Origin: Candidatus Cloacimonadota bacterium
Lineage (GTDB): Bacteria; Cloacimonadota; Cloacimonadia; JGIOTU-2; B8-G9
Assembly (NCBI GenBank): GCA_003647765.1
Contig: QMNM01000022.1
Coordinates: forward strand, 1 to 11,100
Reading direction: 5' to 3'
Length of the DNA: 11,100 bases
Position 1 is the first letter of the stretch, and each line of letters starts with the position of its first letter. Under the pieces are notes generated by a model. It searched no databases, had not been told where the DNA came from, and was given only the letters and a program-made list of their open reading frames with translations. Shown here one piece after another: positions 5,195 through 11,019 of this stretch. Made by a program: the position numbers and the translations under genes.

Positions 5195-5767
5195 CTAATA
5201 TCCTCTTTTTTCCTCGTATTCTTCAATTTCTTGTTTCAATTCATCATAAGCCTTGGAAGCCTTAAATTCTGTCCATAATTTTTCATTAGCAGATAATCTC
5301 TGGACAAAATCTTTACCCATCTTACCAACTGGATATTTCATTAAGACATAGACAATATAAATATTATTGTTTTGGTTAAGAGATTGCTCTTCAAGTACAA
5401 CTCCGATAAGCTCTTGACTTGTAATTTCTTTTTGCACTTGTGTGAACTGCGAAATAATTTCTTCTTGTTTTGATAATCCTGTGGACTCTATAAAGTCCTT
5501 TTTTAATCTTTCAATTTTGCTACTAATAGTAGCTGCGATATTTCCTTTTGCCTCTAATTTTGCTTTACTTATTGCGACTTTTAGCATCTTTGATTCTGCT
5601 GTTCCTGTACCATAGATAAATTCCTTACTTTCAGGTGGATTAACAAACCAATCTGGCAAATCCAACTTTGTTTTGTTCTCACTTTTTATAGCCCTTCCAG
5701 CTCCTCCACAATTAGATAGTAAAACAATTACAACGAATAGAATGCTGATTTTACTTATGAATTTCAT
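5195..5767 (-). CDS. Short LPP20-family lipoprotein
   Basis: This protein is about 190 aa with an N-terminal signal peptide and lipobox LLSNC, so the lipidated Cys is residue 20 from the chosen start. After it comes LDLPDWFVNPP and YGTGTAESKMLKVAISKAKLEAKGNIA in sequence, the LPP20-type pattern of a W/P-rich opening, a G-T-G strand and an alanine-rich helix. The C-terminal third is charged and helical (EEYEEKRGY). LPP20 proteins are envelope lipoproteins, first known from Helicobacter pylori; their biochemical role is not settled. Two ATGs are adjacent at 5770 and 5767. AGGAGG ends 1 nt before the first and 4 nt before the second, so the second is likelier. The Shine-Dalgarno overlaps the TAG of the preceding gene (TAGGAGGA), indicating translational coupling with that paralogue. 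Confidence 0.85.
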   Translation of the reverse strand: MKFISKISILFVVIVLLSNCGGAGRAIKSENKTKLDLPDWFVNPPESKEFIYGTGTAESKMLKVAISKAKLEAKGNIAATISSKIERLKKDFIESTGLSKQEEIISQFTQVQKEITSQELIGVVLEEQSLNQNNNIYIVYVLMKYPVGKMGKDFVQRLSANEKLWTEFKASKAYDELKQEIEEYEEKRGY

Positions 5768-5770
5768 CAT

Positions 5771-5778
5771 TCCTCCTA
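5771..5778 (-). promoter_or_regulatory. Shine-Dalgarno overlapping upstream stop codon
   Basis: TAGGAGGA on the minus strand contains both the stop of the 344-aa lipoprotein gene (TAG at 5776-5778) and a near-ideal Shine-Dalgarno for the short LPP20 gene. It favours ATG 5767 over ATG 5770 and suggests ribosomes pass from one gene to the next. Confidence 0.75.
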
Positions 5779-6810
5779 TTGGTTTTCTCTTATTATATTT
5801 GTCCTTAAATATGTATAAAAATCTTTCTGTATGACTTTATTAACTGTTCTTAAAGCACGATTTCTGGCTTCACTTTTGTTTATATGTCCCTCACGACCTG
5901 ATTTTGTAAATGTCAAATCATCACTTCCACTAAGATTATTTTTTACAACAATAGTCAAATTCCATCGCACAAAATTCTCTCTCCGCTCTAATGGAACATC
6001 TTCTATTTTTAATGCTGTTCTGAATACTAAATCTGCTTCGCTATCTTCAACTACTGAGAACCCAAATCTGGACATAATAACCATTAAGTAACTTTCTATC
6101 TCTTCTGTATACTCACCACTGACAGTTATTGCTACTTTTATAGATTTTGTGAGGGCTTTATATTCTATTCTTAATTTCTCCAAACTGATTGGACTTACAA
6201 TTTCTTCATTAGATGGCTCTATCACTGACAGTTGAGTATTGAGAATATCATTGATTTCACCAAAATCAACTGCATATTGTAAAAAGTATAATTTATCCAA
6301 CTTGTCAGGGCTATCTTTATATTGCTGATAATATTTCTGTATAATTTGATTATTTTTCACAATTTCTTTTTTATAAATAAGAGCTGTTTCCATACGGTCA
6401 AGATATGCAAGTACATAATATAATCCATCTTTAGCATTAAAATATGTCTCTGCTATTTTTACATTTTTCAATGACTGGGAACTTCCAATAGAATAATTGG
6501 ATATCAAATCCACAGAAGAGGACAACTCGGAATCTTTGCCAATGCCTGTTTCTTTATACTGTTCTATAATTTCCTCTTTTACTTTTACATCCGATTGAAA
6601 TATTTTGGAAATATTAGCATAGGCATTATTTTCAGCATGACTTTTTGTATCACCAGTACCAACTGCTGTAATATACATTTCTGATGGATATTTTTTACTC
6701 GGCTCATTTATCCAATTAGGTAAATTGATGATATTATTATTTGAGCTGCTAACAGTATTTGCACAGGAAATTATCATTAGTAAAATGATTAGAAATAATA
6801 TTCTTTTCAT
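5776..6810 (-). CDS. Two-part lipoprotein with N-terminal LPP20-like domain
   Basis: This 344-aa protein has a 15-residue signal peptide and lipobox MIISC with Cys16. Residues about 28-160 resemble LPP20: INLPNWINEPS, then YITAVGTGDTKSHAENNAYANISKIF, and a later strand-rich LYYVLAYLDR. A helical linker follows (about 150-185). The C-terminal part (about 215-344) begins IKVAITVSGEY, continues with GFSVVEDSEADLVFRTAL and RWNLTIVVKN, and ends in a basic helix; I do not recognise it with certainty. Its alternating alpha/beta pattern recalls the small periplasmic domains of LpoB or TolB-N type, but that is a guess. AAAGGA lies about 9 nt before the ATG. The gene is immediately upstream of a smaller LPP20 paralogue, so the pair probably arose by duplication or forms one complex. 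Upstream lies a 176-bp repeat-bearing gap. Confidence 0.8.
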   Translation of the reverse strand: MKRILFLIILLMIISCANTVSSSNNNIINLPNWINEPSKKYPSEMYITAVGTGDTKSHAENNAYANISKIFQSDVKVKEEIIEQYKETGIGKDSELSSSVDLISNYSIGSSQSLKNVKIAETYFNAKDGLYYVLAYLDRMETALIYKKEIVKNNQIIQKYYQQYKDSPDKLDKLYFLQYAVDFGEINDILNTQLSVIEPSNEEIVSPISLEKLRIEYKALTKSIKVAITVSGEYTEEIESYLMVIMSRFGFSVVEDSEADLVFRTALKIEDVPLERRENFVRWNLTIVVKNNLSGSDDLTFTKSGREGHINKSEARNRALRTVNKVIQKDFYTYLRTNIIRENQ

Positions 6811-6870
6811 TTGAACAATCCTTTATTTTTTTAGCCCACAAAATTACATAAAAAGAATAGCACATAGAAA

Positions 6871-6949
6871 AACACTGACTAACACTGATAAAAAATTAAA
6901 ATTAGTATGTATCCTTAAATATTACTCTCTGTGTCTTTGTGCCTCTGTG
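6871..6949. repeat. Dispersed intergenic repeats (ACACTGA and CTCTGTGTC types)
   Basis: In the 176-bp gap between two lipoprotein genes, AACACTGACTAACACTGAT (6871-6889) is an imperfect tandem of AACACTGA units. CTCTCTGTGTCTTTGTGCC and the following TCTGTG span 6925-6949. The reverse complement of the second shares GACACAGAGAG with the repeat at 9134-9152. Such wordings recur in many environmental bacterial genomes as dispersed repeats. I see no terminator with a U tract here. Confidence 0.6.
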
Positions 6950-6986
6950 ATGAAATATTTTTTCCTGAAAACTCAGGCATCTATTA

Positions 6987-8408
6987 TTAGTTATACGAAA
7001 ATGTAGTCAATAGATTTAATTTATTTGGCTTAATTTCCACATCTCTAATTTCCTTTTTTTCTACCAGCCGATTTGCAGAATCTAAATATTTAATTGTAAA
7101 ATTATGCTTTCCATCAGGAAGAACAAATTCTCCGACATAACATTTTCCAGGGATTATTCTCCATCCTCTTAAATCAGCATTTTCTGTCAAATCTACAGCT
7201 GCATTTACAACTTTTCCCGTTACAACAGCAAGTAAAGGATTATCAATTTGGTTTCTAATTTTCTCTTTTCCCTTTTGAGCGACTACGCCTTTTATCACTG
7301 TTCGTAATATTGATTTCAAATATATAATCTGCTCTTTTACTTTATAAGTAGCGATAGCTATTTCTGACATATCTTCTAACAATTCCAATTCCCCTATTCT
7401 TTTGTCATCAGCATAAATTTCAATATTGGATATAACAGAATTCCGTTTCCTTATTTTAGGTAAAGAAAATCTAAAATGATAGCCCTGTTTTACATCTGCT
7501 TGTATAACATCTTTAAACTTCTCTGGCTTATCACCTTTGATTACAATGTAATTCTCATAAGTATCTATTTCACGATTAACAGCATATTTTTCTGGACCTT
7601 TTCCAACAAATGTAATGACATTCAATTTTGTTTGTTTTGTATTGGCAAGACTATTTTCAACTGCTGACGGAATATTGAAATAATACAAATCTTTTTGAAT
7701 TTTCCATAACTGCTCAATTTTTTCCTTATCAATGCGCGCGTCGTCATATTGTTCTTCTGCACGATAAATTAACAAGCTTAAATACCTTGCTAAAGCATCA
7801 TTATGAAATTTTATTTCACCTTTTTTGAATTTGATTTTGGCATTTTTAGATTTATTCAGCTGGCTTATTAAGTTATCATATTTAAGAGATAGAGTTTGTA
7901 ATTTTTCATTTATTCGTCTAATCTCTACAAAAGCATCATCAAACTTATTTAATTCCAGATAGCTTAACGCCTTAAATATATTAAGATATATATCTTCGTA
8001 GTCCTCACCTGAATATGCTAATACATTGTCATTCAATAGAATAGATGTAGCAGCTCTTGACACACTTTTTGTATATGCGTCTTCAATCGCTCTTTCTGCT
8101 AATTCTAGATTCTTTATACATTTCTCATAATTATCAGCGTAATAATAACAAATACCAATGTCTAAATAATATAAAATTTTGTCCTTTTCAGAGTATTTGT
8201 TATTTTTCCAATCCTGTTCAATTTTGGCAATTGCTTTTTGATAATTCTTTTGCTGAATTGCTGTTTCAATTAGTTCATATCTTTTTGTATAACTTCTTGT
8301 AGATGAACATGCTGTAACAATGGAAATAAGAGCGATTAGACATAATTTATGAAGGAATATACTTGGATTTAGATACTTTGATAGTGGATGAAAAGCGGCA
8401 TCTTGCAT
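6987..8408 (-). CDS. COG3014-like TPR-type lipoprotein
   Basis: This 473-aa protein is predicted to be anchored by a lipobox IVTAC (Cys34 from the chosen start) after a hydrophobic stretch at 22-33. Residues about 40-180 are helical and TPR-like (YYLDIGICYYYADNYEKCI, LELAERAIEDAYTKSVSR). They contain NDN (126-128), GEDYE (134-138) and a further repeat with LSYLELNKFDDAFVEIRR, a pattern I recall from the uncharacterised COG3014 family. The C-terminal half is strand-rich and of unknown function. The frame is open to an ATG at 8504, but that would overlap the upstream gene by 77 bp. The ATG at 8408 starts 19 nt after that stop and has GGAG about 10 nt upstream. TPR-like lipoproteins commonly scaffold envelope complexes; its position after an LpoB-like gene suggests work on peptidoglycan synthesis or outer-membrane attachment, as inference only. 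Confidence 0.82.
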   Translation of the reverse strand: MQDAAFHPLSKYLNPSIFLHKLCLIALISIVTACSSTRSYTKRYELIETAIQQKNYQKAIAKIEQDWKNNKYSEKDKILYYLDIGICYYYADNYEKCIKNLELAERAIEDAYTKSVSRAATSILLNDNVLAYSGEDYEDIYLNIFKALSYLELNKFDDAFVEIRRINEKLQTLSLKYDNLISQLNKSKNAKIKFKKGEIKFHNDALARYLSLLIYRAEEQYDDARIDKEKIEQLWKIQKDLYYFNIPSAVENSLANTKQTKLNVITFVGKGPEKYAVNREIDTYENYIVIKGDKPEKFKDVIQADVKQGYHFRFSLPKIRKRNSVISNIEIYADDKRIGELELLEDMSEIAIATYKVKEQIIYLKSILRTVIKGVVAQKGKEKIRNQIDNPLLAVVTGKVVNAAVDLTENADLRGWRIIPGKCYVGEFVLPDGKHNFTIKYLDSANRLVEKKEIRDVEIKPNKLNLLTTFSYN

Positions 8409-8427
8409 TGTCAAGAATCTCCAAAAA

Positions 8428-9036
8428 CTACGATTTAAATTTTTTCTGGCTGATAAATTTTTTGATTTTCTCTGTTCCCATCCACACTTTTTCATTTGTT
8501 TCAAGATGTATCAATTCCAAATCAGTTTGATAATAAATAACCTTTTTACCTTTAATTGTGTCTTCAATAGAATTGAGAGTTCCTTGTAGCATAAAATCCG
8601 CACCAGTTTCATTTGCCAATTTTTTAACTGTCTCTTCTGATGCGTAACTTTGCTGTTCTAATCTCTCTTCACGAAGCTCTTCGCGTTGCTTTCGTGCTGC
8701 TACAAACTTTACCTGACCAGAATTTATCAATTCTCGTTCAATATCTTTAATAAAGGTCTCAACATTGATATGTTCATTACTTTTATTACGGACAGTTCCA
8801 ACAATAACTACTGGATTTCTTCCATTTTTTGCAACAAAATCAGTAAGCCAAGTTTTGCCTAAAACATCTTTAATCATCTTCCCAGCTACCATTCTAGAAT
8901 CTGTATCATTCCATCTACCGCTTAAATCAGTAGTTGTATTAACTCCTATACGAGATACTTGCTTGGTGCTACTGCAACTTATAACTAATATTAGAATCAA
9001 CACATTTACGATAATTGGACTAAATTTACGAGTCAT
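8428..9036 (-). CDS. LpoB-family penicillin-binding-protein activator lipoprotein
   Basis: This 202-aa protein has a lipobox LVISC (Cys21) and then the highly typical COG3417/LpoB sequence: DLSGRWNDTDSRMVAGKMI, PVVIVGTVRNKSNEHINVE, FIKDIERELINSGQVKFVA, REELREERLEQQ, ADFMLQGTLNSIED and ETNEKVWMGTEKIKKFI. In E. coli, LpoB is an outer-membrane lipoprotein that crosses the periplasm and activates the glycosyltransferase and transpeptidase of PBP1b through its UB2H domain. The same general role is inferred here; the partner enzyme is unknown. Only about 14 residues separate the lipidated Cys from the folded domain, far less than the long disordered linker of E. coli LpoB. GGAGG lies 4 nt before the ATG. 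It is the first gene of the lipoprotein block, and a possible promoter lies at 9065-9090. Confidence 0.92.
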   Translation of the reverse strand: MTRKFSPIIVNVLILILVISCSSTKQVSRIGVNTTTDLSGRWNDTDSRMVAGKMIKDVLGKTWLTDFVAKNGRNPVVIVGTVRNKSNEHINVETFIKDIERELINSGQVKFVAARKQREELREERLEQQSYASEETVKKLANETGADFMLQGTLNSIEDTIKGKKVIYYQTDLELIHLETNEKVWMGTEKIKKFISQKKFKS

Positions 9037-9090: not shown

Positions 9091-9104
9091 TTTTTTTAAT
9101 CAAA

Positions 9105-9266
9105 TGTAGCCACGAATTCACGAAGTATTATTTACCACAGAGACACAGAGAGAAAATATAGCCACGAAGTTCACGAAGTAGCACTAAAATAAAGTTTTGA
9201 ATAAAAAATCATTAGTGTAACTTAGTGTTCTTAGTGGCTGAAAAATGTAGCCACGAATTCACGAAG
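9105..9266. repeat. Cluster of TAGCCACGAA and CACAGAGACACAGAG dispersed repeats
   Basis: TAGCCACGAATTCACGAAG occurs identically at 9107-9125 and 9248-9266, and in a variant form (TAGCCACGAAGTTCACGAAG) at 9159-9178. ACCACAGAGACACAGAGAG lies at 9134-9152, and AACTTAGTGTTCTTAGTGGCT, an opposite-strand relative, around 9219-9239. No reading frame or promoter is evident among them. The cluster occupies the gap between the lipoprotein block and the mobile region and seems to have grown by repeated insertion or duplication. Confidence 0.7.
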
Positions 9267-9363: not shown

Positions 9364-9376
9364 TGTGGGTTTATCC

Positions 9377-9393
9377 CATAGGCATCAACCTAA
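9377..9393 (+). repeat. Left terminal inverted repeat of the IS
   Basis: CATAGGCATCAACCTAA matches the reverse complement of 10984-11000 over all 17 bases. After four unmatched bases outside it, GGGTTT also matches on both sides, which may reflect similar target sites rather than element sequence. Confidence 0.92.
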
Positions 9394-9496
9394 CACAGAA
9401 TTTATTATAAATGCTAATCTTAGGCTGGTTAAACTCTCTTGGCACGATGCTATAGGAATTTCTCTAAAAAAACTTGCAAAATTAAGAAAAGAATAC

Positions 9497-9558
9497 ATAA
9501 CTTTCTCCTAAAAATAAGAAGAAATGAAAGTTTCATAGAAAAGAAAGGAGAAAGTTAT
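9497..9558 (+). promoter_or_regulatory. Inverted repeat sequestering transposase RBS and start
   Basis: ATAACTTTCTCCT (9497-9509) is the exact complement of AGGAGAAAGTTAT (9546-9558), which holds the Shine-Dalgarno and the first two bases of the transposase ATG. A small hairpin (ATGAAA/TTTCAT, 9524-9536) sits in the loop. In RNA entering from outside, the 13-bp stem would hide the ribosome site. RNA started inside the left arm would lack it. IS10 and IS50 use this principle to prevent activation by read-through transcription. Confidence 0.75.
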
Positions 9559-10987
9559 GTGGGAAGAATTAGAATTAAGTAAACATATCCATGAACTCTT
9601 TGAAAAATGTTCAAGATTAGAGAAAATTACCAAATTTGTTCAAAGAAGCACAGCAAAACTAAGAGGGCTTCTTTTTGTCAAGGTGATGATTTTTGAATCT
9701 ATAAAAAATCCAATGGCATCATTGGAGAACTATGTTCAAAAGTGCACAGACCTAGATCCTCAGGTAGAGATTAGCAGTCAAGGGATGCACAAAAGAATTA
9801 ATATTCATGCAGTAGAACTTATGGAAACACTATTTAAACAAGCAATAAAATCTCTTGTGAATACCGTTAAATTAGAACTTAATATTCTCAAAGAATTTAC
9901 TGAGGTTTATATTTTAGACAGCACTTCTATTTCTCTACCAGAGAAATTAAGTAAAGTTTTTAAAGGATGTGGTGGAAGTGCTTCAGAAGCTATTATGAAA
10001 GTTCAATCACTATTTGCTTTTCTAACTGGTAACTATATTGCTTTAGCATTGAGAGATGGTATCTCTTCTGATATCTCTTATGCTGAACTGACATTACAAT
10101 ATCTTAAAAAGGGTTCTTTACTTCTGTTCGATCTGGGTTATCTCAGTACTAAGTTTCTTCTGGAGATAGTTAAACGAGCTTGTTATTTCATCTGTCGTTA
10201 CAAGTTTGGCACTTCTCTTTATCTGAATTCACTTAAAACAGGGGAGTTAGAAAAGTTATATCTTGGACAACTCCTGAAAAAACATATCAAAATCCATTTT
10301 GAACTGAATGCTATTCTAAAATCTAAAGAAGGTAAGCAGATAAATACTCGTGTCGTTTTTATTCCAGTTCCAGAACAAACAGCTAATTTAAGAAGAAGAA
10401 AAGCTATCCGAAATTCTAAAAAGAAGGGTCATACACCAAACAAAGAAGCTTTAGCCTTACTGGATTGGTGTATTTTTCTGACAAATGTTTCTTCTGATAT
10501 TTTGAATATTGAAGACATAGCTCAATTATACCGTCTCCGTTGGCAGATTGAACTCTCCTTCAAAGTTTGGAAGAGTATCTTTGCCATTGATAAAATTCAT
10601 GCCAGAAAGCGTGAAGAACGCCTGTTATGTGAGTTCTATGCTAAAATGATTGGTATTATATTATTCAATTTTCTTTGCGCACCTCTGCGAGTAGAAACTC
10701 TTATCGTTCTGAACAGGGAACTCAGCATATTTAAAGCTTTTGCATACTTTCAGGAGGAATCTTTTGCTTTTGCCAAAGCCTTATGCTCTTATGAGACACT
10801 TGTTCAATTTCTTCAAAAAACCTACAAAAATTTAATGAGGTTTGCATTGAAAACTAAACGAAAAAAACGAAAGACTACTCTTCAATTGCTTATGGAATTA
10901 CATACTCCGCAAAACTCTGGGAAAAGAAACCAAAACACAAACTTATATCTTGATTTTCAAAGAACTTACATTAAAAAAGTTTCTTAG
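9557..10987 (+). CDS. IS4-family (IS231-type) DDE transposase
   Basis: This 476-aa protein is the usual length for IS231 transposases (about 478). It catalyses cut-and-paste movement of the element. The catalytic triad is visible: D121 in YILDSTSISLP, D192 in LLLFDLGYLS, and E332 in YRLRWQIELSFKVWK. The last matches the IS4 signature Y-(2)-R-(3)-E-(6)-K at Y325, R328, E332 and K339. The segment FKGCGGSASEAIMKVQ after D121 also matches the IS231 group. The C-terminus is basic (KTKRKKRKTT). AAAGGAG lies 6 nt before the ATG, within a sequestering inverted repeat. The stop codon lies inside the right terminal repeat, as is common in compact elements. The frame is complete with no visible damage. 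It is the only plus-strand gene in the window. Confidence 0.95.
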   Translation: MWEELELSKHIHELFEKCSRLEKITKFVQRSTAKLRGLLFVKVMIFESIKNPMASLENYVQKCTDLDPQVEISSQGMHKRINIHAVELMETLFKQAIKSLVNTVKLELNILKEFTEVYILDSTSISLPEKLSKVFKGCGGSASEAIMKVQSLFAFLTGNYIALALRDGISSDISYAELTLQYLKKGSLLLFDLGYLSTKFLLEIVKRACYFICRYKFGTSLYLNSLKTGELEKLYLGQLLKKHIKIHFELNAILKSKEGKQINTRVVFIPVPEQTANLRRRKAIRNSKKKGHTPNKEALALLDWCIFLTNVSSDILNIEDIAQLYRLRWQIELSFKVWKSIFAIDKIHARKREERLLCEFYAKMIGIILFNFLCAPLRVETLIVLNRELSIFKAFAYFQEESFAFAKALCSYETLVQFLQKTYKNLMRFALKTKRKKRKTTLQLLMELHTPQNSGKRNQNTNLYLDFQRTYIKKVS

Positions 10988-11000
10988 GTTGATGCCTATG
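10984..11000 (-). repeat. Right terminal inverted repeat of the IS
   Basis: TTAGGTTGATGCCTATG is the perfect partner of 9377-9393 and contains the transposase stop codon (TAG, 10985-10987). The sequence outside it, CCCCAAACCCC, does not repeat the left flank. Confidence 0.92.
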
Positions 11001-11019
11001 CCCCAAACCCCGCACCTGC

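Follow-up and report, generated by a model that had tools for sequence, protein, structure and literature searches.

A conserved pair of LpoB-family and COG3014-like TPR lipoproteins in Cloacimonadota and other bacterial phyla

LpoB is the textbook example of a synthase being activated from the outer membrane, by a protein that extends across the peptidoglycan, and to our knowledge all work on LpoB has been done in enterobacteria. The E. coli locus comprises hinT, ycfL, lpoB, thiK and nagZ. Both E. coli LpoB and LpoP of Pseudomonas bind PBP1B at its UB2H domain and act in this way (PMC6220978, PMC7267771). In Helicobacter pylori, the LPP20 relatives HP1454 and HP1456 are encoded in one operon and interact with parts of the envelope; HP0838 (FapH) maintains the outer-membrane barrier of this species, and an hp1456 mutant has no barrier defect (PMC11756786).

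In this study, we analyzed a locus in which genes of the LpoB and LPP20 families are found together with a gene for a TPR lipoprotein. The window, i.e. the whole stretch of 11,100 nucleotides that was analyzed, is an entire contig and belongs to a metagenome-assembled Cloacimonadota genome of 1.97 Mb, which is 89% complete. The features of the block, in 5' to 3' gene order, are as follows.

8428..9036, minus strand: LpoB-family outer-membrane lipoprotein, 202 aa (PF13036, 143 bits over the full profile; TIGR02722, 96 bits; tether length)
6987..8408, minus strand, ATG at 8408: COG3014-like TPR lipoprotein, 473 aa (AlphaFold2 model; TPR matches in the PDB; 44 relatives aligned)
6811..6986, no strand: repeat-containing gap of 176 nt that separates the TPR and two-domain LPP20 genes (from the sequence)
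5776..6810, minus strand: two-domain LPP20 lipoprotein, 344 aa (PF02169, 49.8 bits; structure model; PDB matches)
5195..5770, minus strand: short LPP20 lipoprotein, 191 aa (PF02169, 34.9 bits; position varies among genomes)

The four minus-strand lipoprotein genes of the original prediction are all present as open reading frames with a signal peptide and a lipobox, the lipid-bearing Cys being residue 21 in the LpoB-family protein, 34 in the TPR protein, 16 in the two-domain LPP20 protein and 21 in the short one. They had also been described as tightly spaced, which is correct for two of the three junctions: 19 nt separate the LpoB and TPR genes, and the short LPP20 gene starts 5 nt past the preceding stop, with which its Shine-Dalgarno sequence overlaps. 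At the third junction, between the TPR and two-domain LPP20 genes, the gap is 176 nt and contains a CACAGAGACACAGAGAG-type repeat that is also present upstream of the LpoB gene; the same junction measures no more than 30 nt in 34 of 46 loci from other genomes. Intergenic sequence of the block holds an exact 24-nt direct repeat as well as the CACAGAGACACAGAGAG-type repeat (6922-6941, 9102-9155 and 9243-9266). A search of PHROGs gave no matches.

The remainder of the window holds an IS4-family insertion element (9367-11010) with its transposase on the plus strand (9557-10987) and imperfect terminal inverted repeats of 27 nt at 9367-9393 and 10984-11010. A protein with a metallo-beta-lactamase fold is encoded at 98-865; it is RNase Z-like in its first half only and, with 99 bits against a cut-off of 293, scores far too low for RNase Z. 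A tandem TACGCAT-type repeat occupies the extreme contig end (1-61).

The family assignments made for the LpoB protein and the two LPP20 proteins are confirmed by scores above the Pfam cut-offs. The LpoB-family protein matches PF13036 with 143.1 bits (cut-off 22.3) over profile positions 1-147 of 147, and PF02169 (cut-off 25.9) is matched by the two-domain and the short LPP20 proteins with 49.8 and 34.9 bits, as well as by all 42 aligned members of the two-domain family. The LpoB-family protein stays under the cut-off of the NCBIfam equivalog TIGR02722, with 96 against 110.55 bits, whereas the LpoB proteins of E. coli (218 bits) and Aeromonas (218.6 bits) pass it. The LpoB profile also displays weak kinship to CsgG and TolB_N.

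The TPR lipoprotein consists of a lipobox Cys at residue 34, TPR helices at about 42-251, a beta domain at 260-346, a pair of long helices at 347-408 and C-terminal beta strands at 422-471. An AlphaFold2 model with pLDDT 86.9 displays a TPR superhelix together with beta domains, and TPR chains fill the list of its PDB matches; their Z reaches 12.9 over 150-180 residues, which any helical repeat could attain, and the matched chains are generic TPR proteins. Sequence matches to TPR models fall below the cut-off, no relatives were found in the PDB by sequence, and none of the 44 aligned members of the COG3014-like family, which occurs in many phyla, is covered by a Pfam family.

The two-domain LPP20 protein is composed of an LPP20 domain (31-138), a helical linker, and a C-terminal alpha-beta domain (223-341) of the CsgG/LptE/TraT type. 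Its model has pLDDT 85.1, with low values in the LPP20 hairpins. No PDB relative was found by sequence; by structure, the best PDB match is H. pylori HP1454, over the whole length. FlgT is among the structural matches too, FlgT_M is a weak match of the LpoB-family protein of the window, and LPP20 is the family of FlgP. These matches would conform to a relative of FlgO, FlgP and FlgT (flagellar H-ring and basal disk) that acts at the flagellar motor. However, rod proteins (PF00460) were found in just three of the 28 genomes carrying the LpoB-TPR pair and were not found in the genome of the window; the flagellar role was rejected because the other 25 carriers have no flagellar rod proteins, and we consider it hardly credible.

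In the two-domain LPP20 protein, the C-terminal domain reaches Z of about 11 to LptE and CsgG and resembles PelC and TraT as well. Together with the kinship of the LpoB profile to CsgG and TolB_N, this is consistent with an outer-membrane complex for export or surface assembly, of the CsgG, PelC or TraT kind, in which the LpoB domain and the LPP20 C-terminal domain would oligomerize, the TPR protein would recruit a substrate, and the cell wall would not be the target. Neisseria and other bacteria possess a comparable operon of CsgG-family, TPR (DUF4810) and GNA1162 lipoproteins, which we counted in favor of this explanation. Neither a substrate nor an enzyme gene is conserved with the block across phyla, though, and in Aeromonas, which has a UB2H PBP1B, the pair lies at the lpoB locus. 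We regard export as unlikely.

A neighborhood analysis across phyla supported the predicted synteny for LpoB and the TPR protein strongly, and for the two-domain LPP20 protein as a third member in many phyla, but not for the quartet. In the genome collections searched, relatives of the window come mostly from Cloacimonadota. Of 59 genomes related at class level or more closely, 28 contain the TPR protein, and a strong LpoB (at least 116 bits) is present in the same 28 genomes plus one more, which has 8% contamination and LpoB only. By searching with the TPR profile, 80 named loci were found, whose record titles span Cloacimonadota, Marinimicrobia, Calditrichaeota, Kiritimatiellales, Lentisphaerae, Spirochaetes, Ignavibacteriales and Stahlbacteria. 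LpoB is encoded in all 77 of them that have sequence on the LpoB side; the two-domain LPP20 gene is present in 72 of the 80, and 69 have all three genes in the order and strand of the window. Four loci have the LpoB and TPR genes without an LPP20 gene, and the next genes there are metabolic.

The pairing was also found in loci collected with the Pfam LpoB model alone as query, without selection on the TPR gene, the 30 loci per phylum being the best-scoring LpoBs rather than a random draw. Among the best 30 spirochaete loci (120 genomes), the TPR gene lies directly beside LpoB, on either side, in 27. In Verrucomicrobiota (115 genomes) it was found within 1.5 kb of LpoB in 18 of the best 30 loci, and at least eight further loci of these 30 have it on a wider view, mostly in the arrangement COG3014-ycfL-lpoB; several of the verrucomicrobial TPR matches score weakly, at 15 to 30 bits. 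Zero TPR matches were obtained from 13 unrelated control loci.

The short LPP20 gene takes the position seen in the window in only two of the 57 loci that extend far enough, and elsewhere it is convergent in one locus and divergent in another. The idea of a four-part complex is not supported by this count, and a four-gene unit was rejected on the same ground. The conserved core is the LpoB-TPR pair and not the quartet, with the short LPP20 protein as an accessory. The third gene is specific to the clade, being the two-domain LPP20 gene in Cloacimonadota and several other phyla and YcfL in Proteobacteria and Verrucomicrobiota. No further neighbor is conserved across phyla, and only lineage-specific ones, e.g. 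YjbQ-like and oxidoreductase genes, were observed; the largest neighbor "clusters" turned out to be antisense shadows of the block itself and were discarded. In many spirochaetes a protein of about 620 aa is encoded after the LpoB-COG3014 pair, with PAS and response-regulator receiver domains in the four that were tested, and is possibly an envelope sensor.

The genes could also be neighbors by descent only, with products that work separately. Distances among the LpoB, TPR and LPP20 proteins do rise together (r 0.83-0.91), as plain vertical descent predicts, and we did not count this correlation as evidence of a joint function because no control gene was compared. Against such a purely historical association, the pair survives across several phyla while the flanking genes change and while the order within the pair itself varies, which makes this reading very unlikely.

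The connection of the block with LpoB, which had been drawn from the LpoB-like gene, is corroborated by the synteny and by the lpoB locus of Aeromonas. In Aeromonas caviae (NZ_AP026896.1), hinT, COG3014, ycfL, lpoB and thiK are encoded in a row, and a UB2H-type PBP1B is found in the same record, with 98.9 bits for the UB2H domain. Azospirillum possesses COG3014-ycfL-lpoB. Against the profile of the window's family, the TPR protein of Aeromonas scores E 9e-16 and the Azospirillum protein beside ycfL and lpoB 1e-9, with the database size set to 2000. The presence of the TPR gene within the true lpoB locus of an organism bearing a UB2H PBP1B therefore ties the pair to cell-wall synthesis. COG3014 is absent from the lpoB locus of E. 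coli, Klebsiella, Serratia and Proteus.

Concerning the records, NZ_AP026896.1 is filed as a plasmid, as is Proteus mirabilis NZ_OL790811.1, but with 4.9 and 4.1 Mb they are whole chromosomes. On plasmid pHP-187 of Marinobacter adhaerens, an LpoB-like gene and a YcfL gene flank the start of the record, and a Flp pilus cluster follows a few genes later; no COG3014 match was found near them, and this is an exception to the pairing.

The genome of the window encodes one class A PBP, of 716 aa, which has transglycosylase and transpeptidase domains only. A UB2H-type PBP was not found in this genome, in its 58 relatives, or in 19 block-bearing genomes of other phyla; at 89% completeness a missed UB2H gene is possible in this genome but not across all of the relatives. 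Weak UB2H matches in the relatives and further genomes were rejected as PBPs, because their open reading frames have the size of Mfd or UvrB and a single one that was checked proved to be Mfd. The mechanism known from E. coli can thus not apply unchanged, and the original prediction, which carried LpoB's activation of a bifunctional PBP over to this block, is contradicted on this point both by the missing UB2H PBP and by the score under the TIGR02722 cut-off. Furthermore, 24 near-complete relatives without the LpoB-TPR pair retain class A PBPs, so the pair is dispensable for these enzymes in general.

We tentatively propose that the pair is an outer-membrane module in which the TPR protein serves as a platform and which adjusts peptidoglycan synthesis through a class A PBP without UB2H, an explanation that we hold to be plausible though somewhat short of probable. 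The LpoB-family protein and the TPR lipoprotein would form the core, to which the two-domain LPP20 protein would add a third, clade-specific component; the short LPP20 protein would be optional. The TPR protein may hold and present the LpoB domain beneath the outer membrane, and the assembly would tune peptidoglycan synthesis from there through a contact other than UB2H. Its target in this organism would most likely be the single, PBP1A-like class A PBP. We infer the physical complex, the platform role of the TPR protein and the PBP target alike. Besides the missing UB2H PBP and the relatives that retain class A PBPs without the pair, further observations count against this explanation: the genes flanking the block in Cloacimonadota are not cell-wall genes, and the LpoB fold is common to export proteins such as CsgG.

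A link between the outer membrane and the peptidoglycan, or a monitor of their distance, would be structural or stress-sensing and would not activate a synthase. Several lipoproteins that are co-encoded and conserved would suit this role, as would the envelope interactions of HP1454 and HP1456, the barrier function of HP0838 (PMC11756786), and the sensor-type PAS/receiver protein that follows the pair in some spirochaetes. A Pfam search found no peptidoglycan-binding domain in any of the four proteins, however, and the intact barrier of the hp1456 mutant (PMC11756786) also argues against this alternative, which we judge improbable.

For the proposed LpoB-TPR module, the tether of LpoB provides a hint of what the TPR protein may do. 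A long disordered N-terminal tether was not found in the window's LpoB, where the lipid Cys lies 55 residues before the first beta strand of the domain, the E. coli value being 82; the true LpoB of Aeromonas is also short, with 52, and that of Azospirillum has 54. COG3014 adjoins in all three short cases, whereas the distance is 67-84 residues in the LpoB of four enterobacteria without COG3014 at the locus, a contrast of one clade with the rest that may reflect a single event. These lengths were checked by hand, since the automatic measure took a wrong cysteine or failed in a minority (values of 70-120). The contrast suggests that the TPR protein shares the depth-holding work of the E. coli tether, i.e. 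that it does part of the work of keeping the LpoB domain at the right depth. In Enterobacteria, the TPR partner may have been lost and LpoB's own tether lengthened instead.

The presence of the TPR gene beside LpoB in several phyla suggests that LpoB usually works with an unstudied partner. A broader claim, which we put forward as doubtful, is that LpoB did not originate as a lone UB2H-binding activator but is, across Gram-negatives, one half of an outer-membrane pair with COG3014 that controls cell-wall synthesis through a contact other than UB2H, and that Enterobacteria lost the partner and acquired a longer tether. If LpoB normally has a second lipoprotein, the E. coli system would be a reduced form, and another explanation than the one known would be needed for the many phyla that have LpoB and no UB2H. 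Aeromonas combines the pair with a UB2H PBP1B in one easily manipulated organism, where the idea is directly testable. No paper with the term COG3014 and no description of an LpoB-TPR pair was found in a search of mostly freely accessible journals, and the conserved pair appears to be undescribed in the literature searched.

Compared with known systems, the set resembles FlgO, FlgP and FlgT of Vibrio in that co-encoded envelope proteins bear domains of the LPP20 and CsgG types; the Vibrio set is flagellar, whereas most carriers here have no flagellum. HP1454 and HP1456 (Lpp20) of H. pylori are alike in that the former gave the best PDB match to the two-domain protein and the latter is itself an LPP20 protein, but no LpoB or COG3014 partner is described in H. 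pylori. LpoP of Pseudomonas aeruginosa is likewise an outer-membrane TPR lipoprotein linked to the control of a class A PBP. It is composed of a disordered tether and three TPRs and binds UB2H alone (PMC7267771), whereas the protein of the window has its TPRs near the lipid anchor, possesses two beta regions and comes with LpoB. E. coli LpoB shares with its counterpart here the full PF13036 profile, the outer-membrane lipoprotein nature and a homologous locus in Aeromonas. The window's LpoB differs in its score below the equivalog cut-off, its shorter tether, the lack of a UB2H PBP found in its genome, and its pairing with a TPR lipoprotein that is absent from the E. coli lpoB locus. Aeromonas has that same locus, with COG3014 placed between hinT and ycfL.
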